Both the position numbers and the translations under genes were made by a program. A stretch of DNA of 42,817 nt from Candidatus Woesearchaeota archaeon (lineage in GTDB: Archaea; Nanobdellota; Nanobdellia; Woesearchaeales; DSVV01): positions 1 through 42,817 of the forward strand of contig JACRPI010000024.1 in assembly GCA_016214075.1 (NCBI GenBank), read 5' to 3'. The notes below the pieces were generated by a model. It did no database searches, was not told where the DNA came from, and saw only the letters and a program-made list of their open reading frames with translations. Every line of letters starts with the position of its first letter. Position 1 is the stretch's first letter. Positions 7,491-41,652 of this stretch are shown piece after piece.

Positions 7491-8399
7491 ATGTCTCAGC
7501 TGACAAACTATATTCAAAAAGAACTCGATAAAGGTTTCTCTAAAGATTTGATTAGTAAGAAGCTTTTGCAGGCTGGCTATAGTCAACAAGAAATCAGTGA
7601 GAGCTTCCAAAGTTTGAAGAGCGCTGAACCATTATTAAGACGAAAATCTATTGAAATGCCCCACATGGAATTTCACCTCAAATGGAGTAGATGGGTGTTT
7701 GGGATTTTAGCAGTTCTTCTTGTTCTTGTCTTTGGGTATTTGATTTATTTGTATGAAGGGGATATGGAAAGCATAGGGGAAAAAGGATCCTTAATTATTT
7801 CAGAAGGCATTGAAGAAGAAATCTTTTCTTGTGGATTTGCAGAAGATCGGAGATTTTGCATTACACAGCTTGCACTACAACAAGATAATATTACTGTTTG
7901 TGAAAAAGGAACATATTGCACAGCTGCTTTTGCTGTTGCAAAAAATGATGCTACATTATGCCTCGAGCTTGAAGAGTCAAAAAAAGATCAATGTATTCTC
8001 CTTTTTTATGATTCTACTGGAGATGCAACATACTGCAGTAAACAAGACCTTTATTGTGGTTACAATCCTAACGCATCAGCAGATGAAATTAGAGCATATT
8101 TAACAGAAAAGTTGGAGAATGTTGAACTTGGTGCTACTGCAGAAAATATACTTCAATTTGCTGTTGAGAAAGAACAACCCATTGCCTGTGAGTTCTGGAA
8201 CCCATTATCGCAAGAATATACTTCTCTCTTCAATACATACGGGCTAGATGCTTATGATTTCTGCCTTTTTGCAATAGTTTATGAAACACAAAATACAACA
8301 TTTTGTATCACGATTGCTGAAAGTAATAAAAAAACTACTTGTTTAGAAATACTTGGATGCGATACAACCTCAGAGGAAATTTGTAATGCACTTGATTAA
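7491..8399 (+). CDS. Single-pass membrane protein, paralogue 2
   Basis: A 302-residue protein with the same layout as the 6676 gene: an N-terminal helical module (residues 1-45, KGFSKDLISKKL and GYSQQEI), a transmembrane helix at about 66-88 (WVFGILAVLLVLVFGYLIYL), then an outer domain of about 210 residues with some 20 Cys in small repeated clusters (CxxxFAV, CLELEES, CSKQDLYC). The outer part resembles short helical repeats held by disulfides. The next gene overlaps its 3' end by 14 bases. Function unknown. Confidence 0.72.
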   Translation: MSQLTNYIQKELDKGFSKDLISKKLLQAGYSQQEISESFQSLKSAEPLLRRKSIEMPHMEFHLKWSRWVFGILAVLLVLVFGYLIYLYEGDMESIGEKGSLIISEGIEEEIFSCGFAEDRRFCITQLALQQDNITVCEKGTYCTAAFAVAKNDATLCLELEESKKDQCILLFYDSTGDATYCSKQDLYCGYNPNASADEIRAYLTEKLENVELGATAENILQFAVEKEQPIACEFWNPLSQEYTSLFNTYGLDAYDFCLFAIVYETQNTTFCITIAESNKKTTCLEILGCDTTSEEICNALD

Positions 8400-8715
8400 A
8401 TTATTTGTATTTTGTTTATTCTTCTTTATATCTCTCTCCTCTGTTACATTAGCATTAGAAAAATATCTTATTGATGAGTGGACAACGAGAGAAACTGGTG
8501 CAGATGATGAAGATGATATTGCAACGAGAGGTGCTGATGAATGTTATGTCATCTGCACTGATCCTAACACAGATATTGAATATACACTTCGTGCAGAAAT
8601 TACTGCAACTGTTTTTGATAACACCAATGATCACACCACAAGCAGGTGGTATCTAGAATATGTGGATAGTAACAATGATGAACCAGTTAAAGTTTATTAT
8701 TTTAGAGAATTTTGA
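8386..8715 (+). pseudogene. Truncated copy of the 8939 secreted protein
   Basis: The frame from the ATG at 8386 gives 109 residues: a signal peptide (HLIKLFVFCLFFFISLSS) and then a domain (DEWTTRETGADDEDDIAT onward) almost identical to residues 36-113 of the 262-aa protein at 8939. After YYFREF the frame ends at a stop lying on the left arm of a 10-bp inverted repeat. Downstream, 8764-8790 still resembles the 3' end of the 8939 gene (GAAGAAGATAC.ATTGATGAC). The pattern is a duplicated gene that lost its middle. It could still yield a short secreted peptide. Confidence 0.65.
8473..8703 (+). repeat. Tandem gene duplication, copy 1
   Basis: This segment and 9044-9277 are about 95% identical at the nucleotide level; the second copy has one extra Asp codon. 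The near identity indicates a recent duplication of the secreted-protein gene. Confidence 0.8.
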
Positions 8716-8753
8716 AAAAATCATTTTTTTAAGTTTTAGCAGGTGATTTTTTC
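8714..8753. repeat. Perfect 10-bp inverted repeat with 20-nt loop
   Basis: GAAAAAATCA at 8714-8723 and TGATTTTTTC at 8744-8753 are exact reverse complements separated by 20 bases. It lies where the middle of the duplicated gene is missing and supplies its stop codon. It could be a terminator or the scar of an insertion or deletion. The remaining bases to 8938 hold the decayed 3' end of copy 1 and the ribosome binding site AGGAG of the next gene. Confidence 0.6.
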
Positions 8754-8938
8754 TAAAATTATCTGAAGAAGATACTATTGATGACGATACATACCTACAT
8801 CCAGAAGTTTTATTTTGGTAAAAATTTGTCATAAAGTAGAAGAGATTTGTTTGGATCAGTGTTTATAAATGATGAAAAAGAAAAAATAGATAAATTATTA
8901 AATAAGAATATTCAATCTAAATAAAGAGGAGATCTGCA

Positions 8939-9727
8939 ATGCACTTCAATCGGTTTTTTTCCATCTTCGTACTCTTCCTTTTGTTACTGCCTTTTAGTGT
9001 TGGGTTAGGTCTTGATCCGATAACTTACACAGAATTTTTAGTAGATGAGTGGACAACCAGAGAAACTGGCGCAGATGATGATGAAGATGATATTGCAACG
9101 ATAGGTACTGATGAATGTTATGTCACCTGCACTGATCCTAACACAGATATTGAATATACACTTCGCGCAGAGATTACTGCAACTGTTTTTGATAACACTA
9201 ATGATCACACCACAAGCAGGTGGTATCTAGAATATGTGGATAGTAACAATGATGAACCTGTTGAAGTTTATTATTTTAATAAAAATTCTGATTATGAAGA
9301 TGAAGGTTCACATCGGAGAACTGCTCAACTTCGTTTTTTCCCTTGGTATGAATATGACAGTGTTTTTGGGAGCAATCTTATGAAAAGTTTTACTGCTTAT
9401 GGTGCAGTGGGCCTTACTCCTTTTTTCCCCCTTATTTTCCAAAGCGACTCTACATTTAGTATCAATGGCGAAGGAAACTGGATTACACACCATTATCATC
9501 ATGCAATAGATTATAATGCATGCAGTGGTAAATATATTGAGATTGACGCATGCGCGGATGATGGTAGAAATAGTTGTGATGGATACAGCAATACAGCTGT
9601 TGTTACTTGTTACATCTTTGGGAGTGATGAAACTGATCGTGATGATAATAACGACGGTGTTATTGTAATCAGAGGAGTAGATACTGAAGAAGATACGATT
9701 GATGACTCTGCAACAAGTGACTATTAG
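8939..9727 (+). CDS. Secreted acidic protein, intact copy
   Basis: A 262-residue protein with a signal peptide (NRFFSIFVLFLLLLPFSVG, cleavage near residue 24) followed by an acidic domain with few Cys pairs (ECYVTCTD; CSGKYIEIDACADDGRNSC). It has a good ribosome binding site, AAGAGGAG, 8 bases before the ATG. No family is recognised; the length and predicted beta-rich sequence suggest a small extracellular domain. It is the full-length partner of the broken gene at 8386. DNA at 9044-9277 is the second copy of the duplicated segment. Confidence 0.75.
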   Translation: MHFNRFFSIFVLFLLLLPFSVGLGLDPITYTEFLVDEWTTRETGADDDEDDIATIGTDECYVTCTDPNTDIEYTLRAEITATVFDNTNDHTTSRWYLEYVDSNNDEPVEVYYFNKNSDYEDEGSHRRTAQLRFFPWYEYDSVFGSNLMKSFTAYGAVGLTPFFPLIFQSDSTFSINGEGNWITHHYHHAIDYNACSGKYIEIDACADDGRNSCDGYSNTAVVTCYIFGSDETDRDDNNDGVIVIRGVDTEEDTIDDSATSDY

Positions 9728-9748: not shown

Positions 9749-10300
9749 CTAAACCAAACACCACACATCTTTCCCATTTCTCATGTCTGTTGGTTCTGCC
9801 GCAAAGGACGCAAGAATTACTTTTACTTTATACTTCTTCGCAAGCTCGATATTCTGCCGCAATCTTCCCACTATCTCTCCTTTGAGCTTCTCTTCTGCAC
9901 TGATTAATTGCGAAACTGGAAATGCGTATGTAACGTTTTTCTCTGCCATCATTGCCGCATGCATATGATTCATCCCACTATTTCGATGATGCATGAAATC
10001 CTTTCTTTCTGAGAATTCAAAGCCATACATAATAGTGGGTGGGAAATGTTCCAATGTATGTAAATCTGTTTCTCCTGCTGCTTTGACGACTACTATTTCT
10101 GCCTTTTTTTGCGCGTCGCGGACTTGCTTTGGAAGCGCACAAATTCCTGTTTTTATAGTAATGCCTTTTTCATTGAATGTCTTTGCCTGATATGCGGTGA
10201 AAGGGTAAAGGAAGATCAACTCTTTTGTTCCCAACGCTTTCGCTGTTTTAATAAACGCTTCTTCGTTATTTTTAGGGAATACGATGTCGATGGATTTCAT
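9749..10300 (-). CDS. rnp3: RNase P protein component 3 (Rpp30)
   Basis: A 183-residue protein with the RNase P p30 TIM-barrel pattern. The diagnostic segment is RNSGMNHMHAAMMAEKN, followed by the conserved GRLRQNIELAKKYKVKVILAS helix-strand region and the TDMRNGKD motif near the C-terminus. It is part of the RNase P holoenzyme that matures tRNA 5' ends, acting together with Pop5 and the catalytic RNA (neither is in this window). It is somewhat shorter than the usual 200-230 residues. Its start overlaps the stop of the upstream DUF5615 gene by 4 bases, so the toxin-like pair and this essential subunit share an operon. Confidence 0.85.
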   Translation of the reverse strand: MKSIDIVFPKNNEEAFIKTAKALGTKELIFLYPFTAYQAKTFNEKGITIKTGICALPKQVRDAQKKAEIVVVKAAGETDLHTLEHFPPTIMYGFEFSERKDFMHHRNSGMNHMHAAMMAEKNVTYAFPVSQLISAEEKLKGEIVGRLRQNIELAKKYKVKVILASFAAEPTDMRNGKDVWCLV

Positions 10301-10659
10301 TCTATGTCCCTCACTCTATACTTTCCTATCTCAACAATAGCCATCTTCCCCATTAAATCTTTTTCTTCTCCATTTATTAAAAATATTTTAAGATGTTTAA
10401 GAATAAGAGGAGTAGTGAAGTAACAAGGAAACCGTAATATGATTAAACCATAATGAGTGCCTTTTGGGTATAAAAGCAAGCTCCCAAACTCAATATCTTT
10501 TGTTACTAAAATTGCTTTTTGTTTTTTTGCATATTGTGCTATCTCTCCATCTTTTGCACCCCTTAATCCAACACTGATTGCATGCTCCACTTCAAATCCA
10601 AGTTTCTGAAGTTCAAAAACTAATAGTAAAGATATGTTCTCATCAAGAAAAAGCTTCAT
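10297..10659 (-). CDS. DUF5615 PIN-like toxin
   Basis: A 120-residue protein that begins MKLFLDENIS, with the LDEN acidic start, GAKDGEIAQYAKKQKAILVTKD in the middle and a GLIILRF strand: the DUF5615 (Mut7-C-like PIN) signature. The acidic residues (D6, E7, D36, D53) are in place for metal binding, so RNase activity is plausible. It pairs with the DUF433 gene one base upstream and overlaps rnp3 downstream. Confidence 0.8.
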   Translation of the reverse strand: MKLFLDENISLLLVFELQKLGFEVEHAISVGLRGAKDGEIAQYAKKQKAILVTKDIEFGSLLLYPKGTHYGLIILRFPCYFTTPLILKHLKIFLINGEEKDLMGKMAIVEIGKYRVRDIE

Positions 10660-10660
10660 T

Positions 10661-10879
10661 TTATGCAGGGATTTTATGAACCTCTACCCCTGAAATTATT
10701 GAAGAAGTGTATCGTATGACCGAAAGAACTTGTTCCTTTGTCAAACCATATTCTTTTTGAATCTCTTCATACGTCATTCCTGTCTCTAACATTTCCAGCA
10801 CTTCATCTACTGTAATTCGAGTTCCCTTAATTACTGGCTTTCCATGTCTCGTTTTTTGGTCAATGATTACTTCTGCCAT
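10661..10879 (-). CDS. DUF433 antitoxin-like protein
   Basis: A 72-residue protein with the DUF433 pattern: GKPVIKGTRITVDEVLEML followed by a helix-turn-helix (TYEEIQKEYGLTKEQVLSVI). DUF433 proteins are usually encoded immediately before a DUF5615 protein and are regarded as its antitoxin and transcriptional regulator. The pair is separated here by a single base. Confidence 0.82.
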   Translation of the reverse strand: MAEVIIDQKTRHGKPVIKGTRITVDEVLEMLETGMTYEEIQKEYGLTKEQVLSVIRYTSSIISGVEVHKIPA

Positions 10880-10988
10880 GAATGATTGTATGTGTTTCTC
10901 CTATTTAAAAGTTCTTATCGAAAATTTTAAAAAACTCCCCTTCATTTTGTTTCTTTCGAAAGTTTCAATAAATTATTCAAAAAAAGAC

Positions 10989-11081
10989 AATGGGATTCAA
11001 AAGCACTGCAAGGCGAATACACGCACCAGCAAAAGCAAAAAATGTCAGGGGGACCCATTACCGCAGTAATGGGGTTTTATG
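10989..11081 (+). repeat. Dispersed structured repeat, copy B
   Basis: On the plus strand this carries CACTGCAAGGCGA, ACACGCACCAGCAA, TGTCAGGGGGACC and a perfect 8-bp hairpin CCCATTAC-CGCA-GTAATGGG followed by GTTTT. Compared with copies A and C it lacks the GCTCAGCAA block. It lies in the 10880-11155 gap between TBP and DUF433, antisense to both. The hairpin plus T-run could terminate plus-strand transcripts. I see no other feature in the gap. Confidence 0.68.
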
Positions 11082-11155
11082 TAAAGAGAAATACAACTAT
11101 TTAGAAATGATAATGGTATTAGAAATGAAATAAAAATATAAGAAAAAACAAAAAT

Positions 11156-11761
11156 TTACTTCCCTTTTGTCTTCTTCAAGTTTTCGATGAGCTTATCCAC
11201 TGCATCATTAACCTGCTCTTCACTCTTTGTTCCTGTACAGACAATCTTTCCGTTACTGAACAATAAGAAGGTTGCTTTTGCCTGCGGTAACTTGTAAACA
11301 AGACCTGGGAACTGTTCTGGCTCGTACTCTGTGTTTTCCAATTTCATCGCAAGCACGTTCAGATTGAGATCCATACCCACACTGCCTGACGCAACAATGT
11401 TCTGCACATTGATTTTTGGCTTGATCTTGATTTTAATGTTAATTTTTTCAAGGCTCTTGATAATTTGCTGCAAGGATTCTTCTACTTTTTCCAATGTTCG
11501 AGCGCCAGTGCATACTACTTTTCCTGAACTGAAGATGAGCGCACTTGTTTTTGGCTCTCTAATTCTTATGACTAAACCTGGAAATTGTTCTGGATTGTAT
11601 TCTGTATTACTCAATGTCGCAGCCATCTTCTCTAATGGAATGTCATGCTCCAAAGAAGTAGAAACAACAATGTTTACTATCTGAATATCGCGTTTTGCAG
11701 GCTCTGTCCCTTTAATAGATTCTTTCGACTTTGCTGCTTTCGTTGGTTTTGCTTTTGGCAT
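11156..11761 (-). CDS. tbp: TATA-binding protein
   Basis: A 201-residue protein with the two direct repeats of TBP. The first carries NTEYNPEQFPGLVIRI and SGKVVCTGARTLE, the second NTEYEPEQFPGLVYKL and NGKIVCTGTKSEEQV. It binds TATA boxes and recruits TFB and RNA polymerase. A Lys-rich extension of about 25 residues at the N-terminus (KPTKAAKSKESIKG) is unusual compared with the roughly 180-residue archaeal norm. The start is supported by a strong ribosome binding site. Confidence 0.95.
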   Translation of the reverse strand: MPKAKPTKAAKSKESIKGTEPAKRDIQIVNIVVSTSLEHDIPLEKMAATLSNTEYNPEQFPGLVIRIREPKTSALIFSSGKVVCTGARTLEKVEESLQQIIKSLEKINIKIKIKPKINVQNIVASGSVGMDLNLNVLAMKLENTEYEPEQFPGLVYKLPQAKATFLLFSNGKIVCTGTKSEEQVNDAVDKLIENLKKTKGK

Positions 11762-11764
11762 ATA

Positions 11765-11812
11765 ATCTCCCCCTCACTTATATATAAACCCCTAATTAGA
11801 GTATATAAATAG
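11765..11812 (-). promoter_or_regulatory. tbp promoter region
   Basis: Read on the minus strand, GAGGGGGAG lies 5 bases before the tbp ATG as a Shine-Dalgarno site. Two TATA-like boxes follow upstream (around 11780-11788 and 11800-11810), the second better placed for a short leader. Confidence 0.5.
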
Positions 11813-11991
11813 TTCTTATTTATAAATACTTCTTTTTTAAAGACCTATTTTCAGAGGAAGGAGGGATTTATTCTTCTCACTGAAAAGAGGTACATCTGCT
11901 TCTCTTGGAAGAAAACACGTCGACCTGTTTTTTGGAGTTAGAACTTGCTCTGCCTTCATTAAAAACAAGAGAATTAAAAAATAAAAAAAAG

Positions 11992-12018
11992 CAAATGTAA
12001 GCAGGATGCTCACATTTG
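11992..12018. terminator. Long hairpin in the tbp-vapB intergenic region
   Basis: CAAATGTAAGCA and TGCTCACATTTG pair over 12 positions with one mismatch around a 3-base loop (GGA). In the 11813-12148 stretch this is the only clear structure. Neither neighbouring gene ends here, so it could be a small RNA hairpin or part of a lost gene rather than a terminator. Confidence 0.4.
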
Positions 12019-12148
12019 TTTGATTTGATCATATGTTTAGCCTAGATATGTTGTATGATCAGTAATCTCATTGACCCATTTTATATTTAAAGTTATCTCT
12101 TTTTGTTTATAAATAACGCCATTTTCAACAGAAATCCTCAAAAACAAA

Positions 12149-12182
12149 ACTTTTATATACCACTTTTACTACTTAGTAACTT
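12149..12182 (+). promoter_or_regulatory. Promoter and operator of the RHH/PIN pair
   Basis: The TATA box CTTTTATATAC at 12150-12160 is about 25 bases before the ATG. The perfect inverted repeat TTACTACTTAGTAA (12166-12179) covers the expected transcription start, a fit for autorepression by the ribbon-helix-helix antitoxin. Confidence 0.6.
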
Positions 12183-12446
12183 ATGGTAAAAACGATCAAA
12201 ATCAGCGATGAAAATTATGTTTGGCTCACAAAAATCGCTGGAAAACTCCAACATGAAGCAGGACATCCTGTTTCTATTGATTCTGCAGTTACTTCTCTTC
12301 ACAAAAGCAGGAACATTAGTGAACTTGCTGGCTCGTGGAAAGAATCTGAAAAACAGATTTCTGGAACTACTAAAGAACTCAAAGATCGCTGGAAGCTCTG
12401 GCGTCTCCGTTATATTCCTCAGAAAGCAGAACCAAAGAAGCAATAA
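12183..12446 (+). CDS. Ribbon-helix-helix antitoxin (VapB-like)
   Basis: An 87-residue protein that opens VKTIKISDENYVWLTKIAG, the strand-helix start of archaeal VapB-type antitoxins, and continues with a helix (VSIDSAVTSLHKSR). The C-terminal half, rich in Trp, Lys and Glu, would wrap the toxin. It is 12 bases ahead of a PIN-domain gene and starts 25 bases after a TATA box with a palindrome between, the normal arrangement of an autoregulated pair. Confidence 0.75.
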   Translation: MVKTIKISDENYVWLTKIAGKLQHEAGHPVSIDSAVTSLHKSRNISELAGSWKESEKQISGTTKELKDRWKLWRLRYIPQKAEPKKQ

Positions 12447-12458
12447 TAAAGGTGCACA

Positions 12459-12854
12459 ATGGATAAAGTATGTGTGACAACAGAAATACTCTGCGATCTT
12501 CTCGCAAATAAAACAGAGATTGTCGAGCAGATTGCAAAGATAGAGAAAACTGCGAACATCGCAGTTGCACCTTTTGTTTTGTTTGAACTTTTTTGCATCG
12601 CAGAAGCATCAGAAAAGCCTACAGAGAACACTGCTGCTGTCTGGGATCTCCTTCATCGGATGACCCTGCTGGAATGGACACCAGAAGCGTGCGCAGAAGC
12701 AGCAAAGATGTTTACTCGATTTCAAAAAGAAGGGAAAAAAGTGGATTTGCGCGATATCTTCATTGGCGTTCTTGCAGCCAGAAACAATTATGCTCTTTTT
12801 ACAACGACTCCTGATTTGTACAAAGAGATTCCTGAGATCAAAATATATAAATGA
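12459..12854 (+). CDS. PIN-domain protein (VapC-like)
   Basis: A 131-residue protein that aligns by eye with VapC PIN ribonucleases: VTTEILCDLL at the N-terminus, FELFCIAEA with the second acidic position, VDLRDIFIGVLAARN with the third and TTTPDLYKEI with the fourth. The first catalytic Asp, normally in the (L/V)DT(N/S) start, appears to be replaced by Thr (VTTE). The metal site may therefore be weakened, or the protein may have another role. It follows its RHH partner by 12 bases and precedes the ubiquitin-like gene by 18. Confidence 0.75.
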   Translation: MDKVCVTTEILCDLLANKTEIVEQIAKIEKTANIAVAPFVLFELFCIAEASEKPTENTAAVWDLLHRMTLLEWTPEACAEAAKMFTRFQKEGKKVDLRDIFIGVLAARNNYALFTTTPDLYKEIPEIKIYK

Positions 12855-12872
12855 GGATCACTTATTTCTGTT

Positions 12873-13067
12873 ATGGATGTTTTTATAGAACGAACGGGTA
12901 AAAAGCTTACACTGACTTATCAAGGAAAAGCACAAGGACTCTTAGAGCACCTTAAACTCAATCCTGAAACTGTTCTCGTGGTACGAAATGATCAACTCGT
13001 TACAGAACAAGAGAAACTTAGAAATAGTGATAGCATTAAGATTCTTTCTGTTATTTCTGGTGGCTAA
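12873..13067 (+). CDS. Ubiquitin-like sulfur carrier (MoaD/ThiS/TtuB-like)
   Basis: A 64-residue beta-grasp protein ending in ISGG, the C-terminal Gly-Gly that is activated as a thiocarboxylate. The order of strands (DVFIERTGKKLTLTY ... TVLVVRNDQLV ... DSIKILSVISGG) fits MoaD/ThiS/SAMP proteins. Its stop is directly followed by the ATG of a TtuA-type thiolase, so it is most likely the sulfur donor for tRNA 2-thiolation. Confidence 0.85.
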   Translation: MDVFIERTGKKLTLTYQGKAQGLLEHLKLNPETVLVVRNDQLVTEQEKLRNSDSIKILSVISGG

Positions 13068-13952
13068 ATGCGCTGTCTCACATGCAAACAACCTGTTGTT
13101 TTTTCTTCTCTTTGTAAAAAACACTTTATCGCTTCTGTTGAGAAAAAAGTATTGGACACTATCAAGAAACATAAACTCATTACTGCAAAAGATAAAGTTG
13201 TTGTTGGAGTGAGCGGAGGCAAGGATTCTCTCACTATCCTCTATTTACTTCAAAAATGGAAATATAAAGTGATCGCTGTCTGCATTGATGAAGGGATTGC
13301 AGGCTACCGACCAAGCACTATTGAAGATATGAAAGCATTTTGTGAGAAATATCATGTGCCTTATACTATTGTTTCCTATAAAGAAGCATTGGGCAAAACG
13401 CTTGATGAAATGAAAGTGCTTTTGAAAGAAAAGCCGTGCACAATCTGCGGGGCATTTCGTCGATATTTATTGAATAAGAAAGCACGCGAACTTGGCGCGA
13501 CAAAACTCGTCACTGGGCACAACCTTGATGATGAATCACAGGCGGTATTGATGAATTTATTGAAACATCAAGTTGATTTATTGCCTCGCCTTGGTCCCAT
13601 CACAGGCATGGTGAAAGATACCGCTTTTGTTCCACGGATCAAGCCCCTGTATTTTGTGACAGAAAAAGAAATTGCTGCGTACGCGTTTTTGCAAGGATTA
13701 GGAGTGCGATATGTAGAATGTCCGAACGCTGTTGGCGCATATCGAGCAAAAGTAGGAGATACGCTGAATGATCTTGAGAGATTGTATCCAGGAGGGAAGG
13801 CGCGGTTGCTCAAGCATTTTGTTTCACGATTGCCGTTGTTGAAAAAGAAATTGCGCAATGTTCCTTTACTCCGTCATTGTCAGACCTGTGATGAACCTTG
13901 TGTTGGGGAGTATTGCAAGGCGTGTATGTTGTTGAAGGAGTTGGGAGCATAA
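13068..13952 (+). CDS. tRNA 2-thiolation enzyme, TtuA/NcsA-like
   Basis: A 294-residue PP-loop ATPase. The N-terminal zinc site CLTCKQ...CKKHF (residues 3-24) and C-terminal one CQTCDEP...CKAC (about 270-288) bracket the catalytic domain, as in TtuA/NcsA proteins. The PP-loop SGGKDS lies near residues 48-53, CTICG near 124 and VEC near 217, giving the Cys set used to hold a 4Fe-4S cluster or persulfide. It adenylates and thiolates a tRNA uridine (s2U34 or s2T54; the target cannot be told from sequence). The last 20 bases of coding sequence are repeated beyond the MNT/HEPN pair, so the present final Ala-stop may be a consequence of insertion. Confidence 0.88.
   Translation: MRCLTCKQPVVFSSLCKKHFIASVEKKVLDTIKKHKLITAKDKVVVGVSGGKDSLTILYLLQKWKYKVIAVCIDEGIAGYRPSTIEDMKAFCEKYHVPYTIVSYKEALGKTLDEMKVLLKEKPCTICGAFRRYLLNKKARELGATKLVTGHNLDDESQAVLMNLLKHQVDLLPRLGPITGMVKDTAFVPRIKPLYFVTEKEIAAYAFLQGLGVRYVECPNAVGAYRAKVGDTLNDLERLYPGGKARLLKHFVSRLPLLKKKLRNVPLLRHCQTCDEPCVGEYCKACMLLKELGA
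13927..13946 (+). repeat. 20-bp direct repeat, left copy (att-like)
   Basis: TGTTGTTGAAGGAGTTGGGA, the end of the thiolase gene, recurs exactly at 15127-15146. The two copies are 1200 bases apart and enclose only the MNT/HEPN pair and its promoter. Confidence 0.85.
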
Positions 13953-14483
13953 CTATTTGTATATTATTTCTTTAGTGATATCAATAAGTTCTTTGCAGAT
14001 CTTTTTCAATTCATTGATCTTTGCTTCGTCTTTGACTGAAATTTGCACACCATATGTGTAATTTTCTCTCATGTCAATAACACTGTTCTCTTTGATTTCT
14101 TCTATCTCTTCATATTCCAACAACTCGATGAATTTTTCCCCAAGCTGTATTTTGTTGGTTTCTTTGAGGAATCTCATTAAAGAGATTGTGCAGGTTTGAT
14201 TTGCGGATTCGTAGCCGAATTTGCCGGCAATGGCCAAAAAGCAATGATAAATGCAATAAAAGCCAGCTGACATAGACCAATCAGAAAAACCAATTTCTTT
14301 GAATTTTGTTATTCCATTAAGATTATGCTCCGCTTTGGCAAGATGTTTTTTAGCTTCGTCAATGTTGGAGTAGGTTTTTACCAATCCTCTATGTTTTGTT
14401 CTCTTGCCATGTTTTTTACATTCTTCAATCTCTTTCTCAGCTTTGCTCAAACACCATTCAACATGCTTAGAGGCTTGCGACAT
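13953..14483 (-). CDS. HEPN-domain protein, second module
   Basis: A 176-residue helical protein with a HEPN-type core: KHLAKAEHNLNGITKFKEIGFSDWSMSAGFY followed by CIYHCFLAIAGKFGYES. It overlaps the upstream nucleotidyltransferase gene by 17 bases. It is a divergent homologue of the 1717 gene. The canonical RxxxxH pair is not evident, so RNase activity is unproven. Its stop is 6 bases beyond the left 20-bp direct repeat. Confidence 0.7.
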   Translation of the reverse strand: MSQASKHVEWCLSKAEKEIEECKKHGKRTKHRGLVKTYSNIDEAKKHLAKAEHNLNGITKFKEIGFSDWSMSAGFYCIYHCFLAIAGKFGYESANQTCTISLMRFLKETNKIQLGEKFIELLEYEEIEEIKENSVIDMRENYTYGVQISVKDEAKINELKKICKELIDITKEIIYK

Positions 14484-15057
14484 TTTTTACTATCCCCACA
14501 TATGTATCTTGACCATAAAGAATAATTGCATTTTTGATAATATCAACGAATGCTTTATCTCTCTTTTTAAGATTTTCCAATAAATCCTGCTGAGTTAATT
14601 TAATATCATGAAGCTTTTTAGGAAGTATTTCTTCTTTTTTCTTTAAGATAGCATTTACTTCTTTGACTTCTTTATTTTCTATAACTATCATTATATCTAT
14701 ATCATAGGCATGAGTATAATCTTTAACAGCGGAGCCAAAAAGCAGGACTATTCTCTCTTTCTTAAAAAGTTCTTTAAACTCTTCTTTCCATCGTTTGAAT
14801 TTATTGGCTTCATCTGCGAGCAAAAAAGCGACCAGCTGGCTGACATACTGATCATTAAAATTGAGTTTGTAAATTATGGACTTCCCTATTGTTTTACTAA
14901 TTACTAGATTTTCCTGAAGAAGTCTCTTCAATATCTTTTGGGCGCCAACGTGGCTGATATTCAAAACTTTACTTATTGAATTCGCATTGTAAAAAACAGT
15001 GTACTCTTTAAATAGGATCAGCACAATTTTTCGTTCATTCTGAGTTAAAGTTGTCAT
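14467..15057 (-). CDS. MNT nucleotidyltransferase with winged helix, second module
   Basis: A 196-residue protein with an N-terminal winged helix (NERKIVLILFKEYTVF ... HVGAQKILKRLLQENLVI) and a nucleotidyltransferase core at about 100-140 with LFGSAVKDYTHAYDIDIMI, keeping GS and DxD. It has the same architecture as the 2307 gene but low sequence similarity. The two palindromes upstream of the ATG fit self-repression. The gene pair reads opposite to the thiolase it follows. Confidence 0.78.
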   Translation of the reverse strand: MTTLTQNERKIVLILFKEYTVFYNANSISKVLNISHVGAQKILKRLLQENLVISKTIGKSIIYKLNFNDQYVSQLVAFLLADEANKFKRWKEEFKELFKKERIVLLFGSAVKDYTHAYDIDIMIVIENKEVKEVNAILKKKEEILPKKLHDIKLTQQDLLENLKKRDKAFVDIIKNAIILYGQDTYVGIVKNVASL

Positions 15058-15104
15058 GGTAACATTAAGTTACCACATAGAAACTATGAGTTACTATATA
15101 AAAG
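15058..15104 (-). promoter_or_regulatory. Promoter and operators of the second MNT/HEPN pair
   Basis: GGTAAC-ATTAA-GTTACC (15058-15074) and CATAG-AAA-CTATG (15076-15088) are perfect inverted repeats between the ATG and a TATA box, CTTTTATATAG on the minus strand (15094-15104). The palindromes sit on the expected transcription start. Confidence 0.62.
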
Positions 15105-15126
15105 TTTCGCTATTTTAATAACATTT

Positions 15127-15146
15127 TGTTGTTGAAGGAGTTGGGA
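15127..15146 (+). repeat. 20-bp direct repeat, right copy (att-like)
   Basis: This is an exact copy of 13927-13946. Read in the thiolase frame, the copy continues GGA TGA, so the stop at 15147-15149 is probably the ancestral end of the thiolase gene. Confidence 0.85.
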
Positions 15147-15150
15147 TGAG

Positions 15151-15165
15151 GTCTTGGTGCAAGAC
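15151..15165. terminator. Short hairpin after the right direct repeat
   Basis: GTCTTG-GTG-CAAGAC forms a perfect 6-bp stem just after the inferred original stop of the thiolase gene and 23 bases from the 3' end of the convergent methyltransferase gene. It may have ended thiolase transcription before insertion. Confidence 0.4.
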
Positions 15166-15188
15166 TCAAAATGAAAATGTTCGATGCG

Positions 15189-16010
15189 TTATGGTTTTCT
15201 ACAAACGTAGATTGCCCACCCTATTTCTTTTTTATTTGTTGCTTCAATTGTTTTTTGATACGCTTTTATAAGATACGCATACCTCTCATGATATTTGCTG
15301 TTTTCTCCGTTAGCAATTTTATCTTGAAGTATTTTTATTAATTTTTTATATGTCTTACTCATGTGTTGTGATATGTCCATCGCTTGAATAATTTCAAAAC
15401 CTGTCTTTTTTAATTGTGTTTGATATGACGTAAAAGAAAAAGGAGTATCAAAGAGAAGCCGTTCATACACCCATTTTTGCGCATCTTTGCTTATTTGCTT
15501 TTGGGGCTTTATTAAATCATCAAATACAAAAATGCCTTTGTGTTGCAAAACTCTATATATCTCGCCCAACGCTTTTATCTTATCATGAACATGATAAATA
15601 CTCGACTGACTTATGACATGAGTGAAACTATTATCCCTATATTTAAGGTCTGTTGCTGATGATTTGAAAAATTTGAGCACATGGTCCAGTTTTTGCTGTT
15701 TCGCCTTCTGTTTTGCATGCGCTATACGAACACCACTTACATCTATACCAACGAGCTTACATCCTGTTTTTCTTACAACTTGAACATCTCCTTCACCATC
15801 CCCGCACCCAACATCCAAAACAATAGAATGTGCGTTAATACTTGCATTTTTGATCATAAAATAAGTTAAGTTCTCAGCTGCCAAAATATGACTTTCATCA
15901 TCGGTAAAAAGCCCAAAATGACACGTTCCCTTCGCATCCCAAAATGATAAATAAATTTTATCCTCTGCGTCATAGTATTCTTCTGTCTTGCGTTCAGTAA
16001 ATCGCTTCAT
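15189..16010 (-). CDS. SAM-dependent methyltransferase, class I
   Basis: A 273-residue protein with the class I motif I VLDVGCGDGEGDVQVV near residue 65, the acidic strand-2 end VGIDVS and a UbiE-like core (SFTHVISQSSIYHV). The C-terminal part (DDLIKPQKQISKDAQKWVY, then a Phe/Thr/Tyr-rich segment) recalls sarcosine/dimethylglycine or gamma-tocopherol-type methyltransferases acting on small amines, but the substrate cannot be assigned. It is a single gene with a poorly defined AT-rich promoter. Confidence 0.8.
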   Translation of the reverse strand: MKRFTERKTEEYYDAEDKIYLSFWDAKGTCHFGLFTDDESHILAAENLTYFMIKNASINAHSIVLDVGCGDGEGDVQVVRKTGCKLVGIDVSGVRIAHAKQKAKQQKLDHVLKFFKSSATDLKYRDNSFTHVISQSSIYHVHDKIKALGEIYRVLQHKGIFVFDDLIKPQKQISKDAQKWVYERLLFDTPFSFTSYQTQLKKTGFEIIQAMDISQHMSKTYKKLIKILQDKIANGENSKYHERYAYLIKAYQKTIEATNKKEIGWAIYVCRKP

Positions 16011-16213
16011 ATAATAAATAAAAGAAGATTAATCCTATAAATGTAGTGGTGAAACACGAAGTATTTGCCGAACTCTTTATCCGCTGTTATGTCGTCCGTT
16101 AGGATTGAGGTTTAAGTTTGAACGAAGTGAAAACATTAAACCGAGAAGTTGCGAAGGGGTCAAATGCTCTCAAGAACAAAGTTCTCTTAAGCATAAGAAG
16201 AGAGAGTAGGAAG
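16011..16213. other. Intergenic segment with hairpins
   Basis: There is no coding region here. GGTTTAA GTTT ... AAAC A TTAAACC (16109-16142) forms an 11-bp stem with one bulge and an 11-base loop, and AAGAAC-AAA-GTTCTC near 16172-16186 forms a second small hairpin. Either could end the RelE gene transcript on the minus strand or be a small structured RNA. Confidence 0.4.
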
Positions 16214-16462
16214 CTACTGCTCGTCTTTATGATATAAATCAATGAAGACAATCTTTTCTTCTTCTTGGAAATATGCATATGCTAATCTATATGGTTTCAC
16301 ATATAATTCACGAGTTCCTTTTCTGCTATACATCATCGGTTTTCCTATTTCGGGGTTTTCTATTATTTTCTCAACTTGTTTTTTGATTTGTTCTTTAGTG
16401 GCTCGGTGCTTTATCTTGCTCACTTTCTTAAGGAAATTTTCTCTATGTTCTATTTCTAACAT
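16214..16462 (-). CDS. RelE/ParE-type toxin
   Basis: An 82-residue protein with the RelE/ParE fold pattern: FLKKVSKIKHRATKEQIKKQ helices, then PMMYSRKGTRELYVKPYRLAYAYF and IVFIDLYHKDEQ strands ending in the usual HK-D tail. These toxins cut ribosome-bound mRNA or inhibit gyrase. The gene overlaps its AbrB-type antitoxin gene by 7 bases. Confidence 0.83.
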   Translation of the reverse strand: MLEIEHRENFLKKVSKIKHRATKEQIKKQVEKIIENPEIGKPMMYSRKGTRELYVKPYRLAYAYFQEEEKIVFIDLYHKDEQ

Positions 16463-16722
16463 GCACGTAACTCCTTAAGAAAGTCTTCTTTAGATTTTCT
16501 CTGAAATTTTCCATTGTCATATTCTTGCCATGCTTTCTCTACTTCTTCCGCAAAGGCAAGGTCTTCTCGAAGATTTGAAGCAAGGGATTTCATACTTTTT
16601 AGTATAAACCTTCCATCATCTTTTATCATGAGAAATTCATCTCCTGTTTCTACATCATCTCTTAAAGATGAAGGGATGACTATTTGCCCCTTTGTGCTTA
16701 CTTTTGCTATTGCGTATTCCAT
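16456..16722 (-). CDS. SpoVT/AbrB-type antitoxin
   Basis: An 88-residue protein. Residues 1-48 are a swapped-hairpin AbrB domain (AKVSTKGQIVIPSSLRDDV, then GDEFLMIKDDGRFILK), and the C-terminal helix would bind the RelE toxin. An inverted repeat lies between its TATA box and start codon. Confidence 0.85.
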   Translation of the reverse strand: MEYAIAKVSTKGQIVIPSSLRDDVETGDEFLMIKDDGRFILKSMKSLASNLREDLAFAEEVEKAWQEYDNGKFQRKSKEDFLKELRAC

Positions 16723-35119: not shown

Positions 35120-36331
35120 CTACTCCACATTTAAACTCTGCTGAAGTATAGTCATTATTTTTGGCTTAATTGTTTGCGGAATAGCAACAGAAATCTCGCG
35201 CGTTCTTCCAAATCTTCCTTTTGAAACAACTTTCGCGTTTATAATTCCAAGCATATCCAACTCCGCAATAATATCAGAAACTCTTCTTTGCGTTAATGGA
35301 TATAAACCTACTTTCACACACAATGTTTTGTAGACATCATACACATCCCCTGTATAAATAATAGCATTCTTCTCATTATACAAGGAAAAAATCGCATAGA
35401 GTGTGGTCTGCTGCTGCCGCGGCTGCGTTTTGACAATATCAATAACTCTATCTCTTTCAATTTTTTCTTCTGCATTGTCTATGTGCGCTATCTTTACTGT
35501 CTGTTCTCCATTTCTCTCCGCAATTTCTCCCGCAACACGAAGCAACTCAAGAGCTCTTCTCGCATCCCCGTGTTCTCGTGCCGCATACGCTGCACATTTT
35601 TCCAAAACCCCTGATTCAATAATATTTTCTTTAAATGCGTGCGTTGCCCTTCTCCGTAAAATATCTTGAAGCTGAAGCGCATTATATGGCGCAAAAATTA
35701 CTTCTTCCTCACTCAAAGAAGATTTTACCCGTGGATCCAAATGATCTGTAAAAACAAGATCATTAGAAATTCCAATAATACACAGCTGGCTTTTTTTGAG
35801 ATTTGTATTAATTCTCGTTAGGTTATAGATAATTTCATCTCCTACTTTTTTTATTAACTGATCTATTTCATCTAAAATCAACATGATGAGCTGTTCTTTG
35901 TCATCCACTGCACTAAAAAATATTTTATACACTTCATCTGTCGGAAGTCCTGTTGCCGGAATATCTTTATTGAACTCTCTCGCAAGCTGCGCAATAACCC
36001 TATATTCTGTATCCGCAATTCGACTCAACTTACAATTAATATATACTGTCTTTAAAGGAATGTTTCGCTCCTCTGAGAGTCTTCTTATTTCTGCCGCAGT
36101 ATATATCGCAGTGACTGTTTTCCCAGTTCCTGTTTTTCCATAAAGAAAAACATTCGATGGTCGTTCCATGCGCAGCGCGGGAGCAAGAATCTTTGCAAGT
36201 TGATTGATTTCTTCATCCCTATGAAGCAACGCATCTGGTGTATAAGAAGATTGTAATACTTTTTTATCTTTGAAAATAGACACCTGACTTAAAAATTTCT
36301 CAAATATATTGTTTAACCCCTTTTCTTCCAT
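35120..36331 (-). CDS. cdc6: Orc1/Cdc6 origin-binding initiator
   Basis: A 403-residue AAA+ protein from the ATG at 36331. Walker A VFLYGKTGTGKT is near residues 60-71, Walker B LILDEIDQL near 147, then a sensor segment (LCIIGISNDL) and the Arg-containing lid (EHGDARRALELLRVAGEIAE). A C-terminal winged helix (YPLTQRRVSDIIAELDML) binds origin boxes. It is the first gene of the cdc6-DP1-DP2 operon and lies next to an AT-rich region with ORB-like sites, as expected for the initiator of the neighbouring origin. Confidence 0.95.
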   Translation of the reverse strand: MEEKGLNNIFEKFLSQVSIFKDKKVLQSSYTPDALLHRDEEINQLAKILAPALRMERPSNVFLYGKTGTGKTVTAIYTAAEIRRLSEERNIPLKTVYINCKLSRIADTEYRVIAQLAREFNKDIPATGLPTDEVYKIFFSAVDDKEQLIMLILDEIDQLIKKVGDEIIYNLTRINTNLKKSQLCIIGISNDLVFTDHLDPRVKSSLSEEEVIFAPYNALQLQDILRRRATHAFKENIIESGVLEKCAAYAAREHGDARRALELLRVAGEIAERNGEQTVKIAHIDNAEEKIERDRVIDIVKTQPRQQQTTLYAIFSLYNEKNAIIYTGDVYDVYKTLCVKVGLYPLTQRRVSDIIAELDMLGIINAKVVSKGRFGRTREISVAIPQTIKPKIMTILQQSLNVE

Positions 36332-36444
36332 ATAATTCCATAGGAAACCAAGGTTTATATAGTTTTTTAATTCATTTTTTTTACCCCTTTTCCACAACAA
36401 CTTATCGAGGATAACAAGAGCGTGGAAAATAGGTAATGGGCCCT

Positions 36445-36466: not shown

Positions 36467-36782
36467 ATGGAAGTTGAGGAGTTAGAGAGGTTCGAAGGTG
36501 TTGTTTAGAAGGCGCGGTTTAGAGGTGGTGCGTTTTGTTGATAATATTAAATATATGAAATAGATACGTGGTGTAGATATACAAGATAGACGTACGAAGA
36601 AGCATTATACAAATTATGAAAGAATAGTAAAGTACAACAAACAAAAAATAATCTAATTCATTTTGCCTTTTTTGTTACTCTTAATTTATAGTTAATATTA
36701 TTTTATTGTTTTACTTCTATTATTTAACAATTTCACTATAATTCTTTTTTCATTATTAATTTCATTATCTATTTATTTTATT

Positions 36783-37016
36783 ATATTTTTATTGTTATTT
36801 ATTATTAATTTTATATTTATTGATTTTATTTTATTATTTATTATATTATTAATTTTATCATCTATTGATTTTATTATTTATTATTCTATTTATTTTATTA
36901 TATTTTTATTGTTATTTATTATTAATTTTATATTTATTGATTTTATTTTATTGTTTATTATATTATTAATTTTATCATCTATTGATTTTATTATTTATTA
37001 TTCTATTATATTATTA
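36783..37016. repeat. 117-bp AT-only tandem repeat, two copies
   Basis: The segment starting ATATTTTTATTGTTATTTAT at 36783 recurs at 36900 with almost no change. The unit is 117 bases and nearly all A/T. It lies in the middle of the presumed origin. Confidence 0.8.
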
Positions 37017-37055
37017 TTATTTTCTATATAGAAATTAATTATATTATTATATTAT

Positions 37056-41555: not shown

Positions 41556-41652
41556 CATAGGGATTTTCAAGGACTGTAAGGCGATTATTTGCTCAGCAAC
41601 AAAAAAATACACGCACCAACAAGACTTTTTACTGTCAGGGGGACCCATGAAC
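41556..41652 (+). repeat. Dispersed structured repeat, copy C
   Basis: It carries TCAAGGACTGTAAGGCGATT, TTTGCTCAGCAAC, ACACGCACCAACAAG and TGTCAGGGGGACCCAT in the same order as copy A. The terminal hairpin is lost or replaced. It lies in the 41542-41898 gap between divergent genes and is followed directly by two strong hairpins. Confidence 0.65.

Follow-up and report, generated by a model that had tools for sequence, protein, structure and literature searches.

The stretch of DNA analysed here (the window) comprises 42,817 nucleotides, positions 1 to 42,817 of contig JACRPI010000024.1 (assembly GCA_016214075.1, Candidatus Woesearchaeota archaeon). The assembly is a single draft genome of 46 contigs, 98% complete. 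Within the window a HEPN/MNT gene pair directly follows a gene for a tRNA-thiolation enzyme and is bracketed by a short direct repeat. The features of the locus were as follows.

10297-10879: DUF5615 pair, toxin-antitoxin-like, near ttuA
12459-12854: PIN gene, toxin-antitoxin-like, near ttuA
12873-13067, + strand: ThiS/SAMP2-like sulfur carrier gene, upstream of the ttuA-like gene (Pfam PF02597)
13068-13952, + strand: TtuA/NcsA-type tRNA 2-thiolation enzyme gene, the target gene, intact (PF01171; sub-threshold PF16503)
13927-13946, + strand: left copy of the 20-mer, an exact match within the last codons of the ttuA-like gene
13937-13949, - strand: module tail TGCTCCCAACTCC, overlapping the left 20-mer copy and common to two modules away from ttuA
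13953-14483, - strand: HEPN gene of PF05168 type, presumed toxin (Pfam; A2 alignment; remote PDB match AF0298)
14467-15057, - strand: MNT gene with an N-terminal winged helix, presumed antitoxin and autoregulator (PF01909; PADLOC PDC-M05A)
15058-15112, - strand: module promoter/operator, conserved upstream of MNT in relatives, with an abrupt end
15127-15146, + strand: right copy of the 20-mer, an exact match followed by an in-frame TGA; probably the ancestral 3' terminus of the ttuA-like gene
15147-15149, + strand: probable ancestral stop codon TGA in the ttuA frame, judged from the sequence
16214-16722: ParE-like/MazE-like genes, toxin-antitoxin-like, near ttuA

The gene to the left of the pair had been named a thiolase in an earlier note on this DNA. 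That identity is wrong and was dropped, as the product combines a PP-loop ATPase domain (PF01171) with a zinc ribbon tail (PF16503, below threshold) and a ThiS/SAMP2-like carrier is encoded just before it. The TtuA-like protein was matched in 52 of 60 related genomes. A look for an empty ttuA site within the genus yielded none: the ttuA gene of G002 breaks off at the edge of its contig, and neither G001 nor G002 gave a match to the protein's last 68 residues. In the family-level relatives G003 and G008, ttuA is not immediately followed by a module, and the methyltransferase gene to the right of the module is not conserved across the family. The other toxin-antitoxin-like genes listed above are densely packed around ttuA (10297-16722), and a second HEPN (1717-2310)/MNT (2307-2909) pair occupies the minus strand at 1717-2909, with no convincing repeats on its flanks. 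Elsewhere in the window, a Cdc6/Orc1 gene lies beside an extremely AT-rich array with a 117-bp period (35120-36400 and 36714-37017), a candidate replication origin. A 202-nt segment is duplicated at 96% identity, 574 bp apart, across ORFs 7491-8399 and 8939-9727 (8462-9278). A dispersed 43-nt repeat ending in TGTCAGGGGGACCCAT (11016-11058 and 41606-41648, 79% identical) had no Rfam match, nor did any other part of the window.

The sequence TGTTGTTGAAGGAGTTGGGA (+ strand) occurs in exact copies at 13927-13946 and 15127-15146. The perfect 20-bp repeat and the 1200-base spacing reported previously were thus borne out, and 100 shuffles gave 0 matches. The repeat is exactly 20 bp long, since the bases neighbouring the left and right copies differ at both ends, and it is the longest exact direct repeat of the window, two local tandem or duplicated arrays excepted. 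The next-best match within the window has 3 mismatches. The genome (1.62 Mb) holds these two copies and no third at up to 2 mismatches, so that a search for the 20-mer beside other cassettes of the genome, as the earlier note had proposed, returned none. GCA TAA comes after the left copy, which ends 6 nt short of the end of the ttuA-like gene; read in the same frame, the C-termini are LLKELGA* for the left copy and LLKELG* for the right. The TGA at 15147-15149 agrees with the suggestion that the right copy probably preserves the original stop. ORF and Pfam analysis found the interior to consist of the HEPN gene, the overlapping HTH-MNT gene and their promoter and nothing else, the 69 bp upstream of MNT being all that remains before the right copy. 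The claims that only a toxin-antitoxin pair with its promoter lies between the copies, and that no integrase gene does, therefore hold.

The HEPN product scored 21.2 bits against PF05168, just under the 22-bit cut-off (E 3e-4), and has RENYTYG where RX4HXY is expected. The MNT motif GSAVKDYTHAYDID reads GSX9DXD, one residue shorter than GSX10DXD, and GSX9DXD is intact in all 21 modules compared. Upstream of MNT the promoter includes a TATA box, TTTATATA, at 15102-15095 and repeated GTAAC motifs; the winged helix of MNT together with these repeats suggests autoregulation of the module. Going by its domains, the pair belongs with the Class II HEPN/MNT pairs, in which a PF05168 HEPN lacks RX4HXY (PMC7641770). 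Type VII HepT-MntA systems (Class I) are characterised by HEPN RX4HXY, in place of which RENYTYG stands here, and by MNT GSX10DXD, which appears here as GSX9DXD.

The sister-genus genomes G006 and G009 carry the same module (MNT 75% identical in protein, DNA 76%). The DNA match spans only positions 13960-15117 of the window, with both flanks unmatched; that the similarity stops near the edges of the insert supports the proposal of a minimal transferable toxin-antitoxin cassette. In both genomes the module sits upstream of the RNase HII gene, and a second copy of that gene's initial ~32 bp stands on the module's far side (TTAATCATAGGCATTGAYGAAGCAGGWAGAGG). The same module has therefore been inserted at two sites, with a different duplication at each. 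Between RNase HII and HEPN, G006 also carries a minisatellite (TTAGTTTAGTTAAAAG)n (L083, 9050-9270) that is nearly absent in G009. Twenty relatives of the module, one of which (L231) is the G006 locus, were found at varied locations in Woesearchaeota, Pacearchaeota and Nanoarchaeota genomes. Among them the conserved stretch opens, ~55 bp before MNT, with a BRE/TATA/operator block, continues to the HEPN stop and then ends; in the window the outer limit on the promoter side corresponds to the promoter/operator at 15058-15112. Some relatives have repeats of their own (L224, 18 bp; L236, 28 bp; L240, ~250 bp or more). The tail TGCYCCCAACTCC after HEPN recurs in L222 and L230, neither of which adjoins ttuA. 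These tails were considered as fossil ttuA ends and rejected, there being no significant similarity outside the 13-mer.

An empty site holding a single copy, which the earlier note had proposed to look for, was found for a related module. The Rpp30 (RNase P p30-like) gene of G003 carries an MNT/HEPN module at its 3' end, bracketed by an exact 37-bp core repeat of that gene end, and the syntenic locus of G008 has a single Rpp30-end copy, no module and continuous flanks. An Rpp30-like gene is also present in the window near ttuA (9749-10300), so modules seem to have entered two genes of one neighbourhood, ttuA and Rpp30, in separate lineages.

Modules were collected from several dozen genomes of the order with MNT (A1) and HEPN (A2) profiles, yielding 156 non-redundant MNT(/HEPN) modules with flanks. 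A module was counted as straddled where a direct repeat scored at least 18 with each copy no more than 400 bp from the module. Straddling repeats were found for 23 of the 156, as against 7 of 911 shifted control windows of the same size (Fisher p ~1e-14) and 0 of 48 windows centred on TtuA or methyltransferase genes. The same kind of test gave 0/25 for PIN, 0/29 for glycosyltransferase and 4/29 for Fic genes. Hand curation covered part of the 23 positives, a few of which may represent gene paralogy; the repeat around L058 turned out to come from the beginnings of two paralogous genes and was left out of the target duplications. Both copies lie within ~130 bp of the module in 15 of the 23. Repeats have a median length of 38 bp (range 19-258 bp), and the unit between the copies measures 1057-1617 bp in all 23. 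About 14 have one copy placed no more than 20 nt from an intact host gene's terminus, usually the 3' one; 5' ends also serve as duplicated targets. No common bracketing sequence exists: the ttuA end, the RNase HII start, the Rpp30 end, a GatE-like end and others are used.

The remaining 133 modules have no straddling repeat; either repeats decay or insertion often happens otherwise. The earlier note had named relatives carrying the pair without the repeat as evidence against its reading. Most relatives do lack the repeat; with 15% of modules retaining one compared with fewer than 1% of controls, we read them as cases of decay or of junctions of another type.

Other units bracketed by repeats were seen among the collected loci. 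Fic genes lie between direct repeats of ~25-63 bp (L170 191/1319, L144 2709/3921, L285, L277, L290 and L297); a two-gene unit, AbiE-like by eye, lies in a 92-bp repeat and adjoins an MNT/HEPN module (L139, 2775-4346); and further units resembled AbiE-type, Fic, RhuM/HNH and MccF-like genes, as judged by eye from the sequence.

Alongside the observed borders, the paired copies, the second site with its own duplication, the empty site of a related module and the enrichment over controls, we consider it probable that the ttuA-like gene received a bare HEPN-MNT operon at its 3' end, 20 bp of the gene being duplicated in the process, as one of many events with variable duplications in this archaeal order. 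The previously claimed insertion at a gene 3' end is upheld, the ttuA-like gene remaining whole. The accompanying claim of site-specific integration fares otherwise. It would have a tyrosine recombinase, acting in trans, join a circular cassette to the ttuA 3' end through the 20-mer or a 10-bp core (TCCCAACTCC), leaving attL and attR; the position of the repeat at a gene 3' end, the recurrence of the tail TGCYCCCAACTCC at two unrelated locations and the two tyrosine-recombinase genes encoded elsewhere in the genome are in its favour. A constant att core is, however, absent across independent insertions, where the sole shared element was 10-13 bp of tail overlap among three modules, and the tails share nothing significant beyond the 13-mer. 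Close relatives of the module are inserted elsewhere with unrelated repeats, the duplications range from 19 to 258 bp and gene 5' ends are targets too. Since the repeats vary in sequence and length between sites, usually at the very end of a gene, att recombination is not supported, and we regard it as improbable. Somewhat less improbable, though still unlikely, is transfer facilitated by homology, in which donor DNA already carrying the module behind ttuA recombined on one side and was joined illegitimately on the other, leaving a partial second gene end. Such a process would likewise yield duplications of variable length at gene ends, and the identical 20-mer is compatible with a very close donor; yet it requires a prior insertion at each of many different genes, and both flanks in the G003/G008 comparison are the recipient's sequence as far as the repeat, so that no donor gene tract is visible.

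Integrative elements of archaea often reside at the 3' ends of genes, and toxin-antitoxin pairs are carried on such elements. This background would favour a bigger integrated element, be it a virus, plasmid, casposon or insertion sequence, since reduced to the toxin-antitoxin pair, an origin that we hold to be very improbable: each of the 23 units, at 1.06-1.62 kb, amounts to the operon alone, no relatives of the module were detected in the IMG/VR, phage and plasmid collections at the sensitivity used, the genome has no Cas1, and the same repeats were not seen around larger elements in relatives. That the pattern derives from chance or from an assembly artefact is scarcely credible. The window does come from a single draft genome of 46 contigs, but shuffles gave zero matches, controls were near zero and genomes independent of this one show the pattern again, two sister species among them sharing the RNase HII duplication.

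Under the preferred reading of a bare operon insertion, the inserted unit would be ~1.15 kb, made up of ~65 bp of promoter, the two genes and a few bases past the HEPN stop. Insertion would have duplicated 20 bp of the ttuA-like gene, the far (right) copy representing the original gene end, while the left copy, joined to the gene body, would keep the protein whole and the insert would supply the new stop TAA. The target gene would thus stay intact because the insertion lies at its end and the duplication rebuilds it. Each event in turn would leave a duplication of its own sequence and length. Joining may have been carried out by the host repair or replication machinery and not by a dedicated recombinase, with short foreign DNA captured by template switching or microhomology-mediated capture; a switch to the cassette followed by a return upstream of the leaving point would copy the intervening target twice. 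The end of ttuA holds the reverse complement of TCCCAACTCC, a 10-bp overlap with the module tail, and the HEPN-side junction, a single case, therefore probably lies within a 10-bp microhomology. Neither a Cas1 nor a Ku gene was found in the 98% complete genome, and the variable duplication length argues against known transposases. Retention may be explained by the pair being addictive, presumably, and by survival of the target gene.

Insertion of restriction-modification (RM) units with long, variable target duplications is known (Nobusato 2000; Furuta 2010), and in the accounts given in PMC3874152 and PMC3031569 those duplications are likewise direct, variable in length and sequence and on the order of 100 bp. 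Such units are also selfish or addictive and do not require a transposase or terminal repeats. As in RM insertions, target repeats bracket the units described here and vary in length (19-258 bp) without being related in sequence; a single-copy empty allele is available for the G003/G008 pair only. In contrast to RM units, the cargo is a HEPN/MNT pair (or some Fic genes) in small-genome archaea, the duplications in most cases occupy the extreme ends of host genes and the unit has no DNA nuclease able to break the target. With HEPN/MNT as cargo in place of restriction-modification, the process works like the described RM case and is not identical with it. PDC-M05 systems are enriched in archaea, their antiviral role being unconfirmed (PMC12988326). 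Like these and Class II HEPN/MNT, the present pair is archaeal, with a PF05168 HEPN adjoining a PF01909 MNT that has GSX9-10DXD; the N-terminal winged helix of its MNT sets it apart from those described, and no description of the insertion mode of pairs of this type was found. HEPN-MNT insertions in Thermus and Deinococcus were noted in 2009 from presence and absence between close relatives at syntenic sites, with no mention of direct repeats and no junction analysis (PMC2701414); here too the pair is present or absent at otherwise syntenic sites. No paper describing target duplications for HEPN/MNT or Fic units was found among open papers.

Insertion sequences and casposons that make long target-site duplications encode a transposase or Cas1, and their ends are defined and their duplication length is near-constant. 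The present insertions resemble them in the duplicated target DNA on each side and differ in that no transposase or Cas1, defined ends or constant duplication length was seen. HEPN/MNT pairs are among the commonest archaeal gene pairs and are known to come and go; the route by which they enter genomes was not found described in the searchable papers. The duplications are base-exact footprints of single insertion events, with the bare operon as the unit of transfer, and they make the mechanism testable. Such pairs seem to travel as gene cassettes on their own, no mobile element being visible, and the duplications connect the way archaeal toxin cassettes move with the way restriction-modification units do. 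As a more speculative and rather doubtful extension, a general machinery in small-genome archaea might move bare toxin operons (HEPN/MNT, Fic and perhaps AbiE) from one genome to another as unmarked linear or circular DNA and seat them at gene ends with duplication of the target. If true, genes would be mobile in this way with neither terminal repeats nor an enzyme carried by the cargo.
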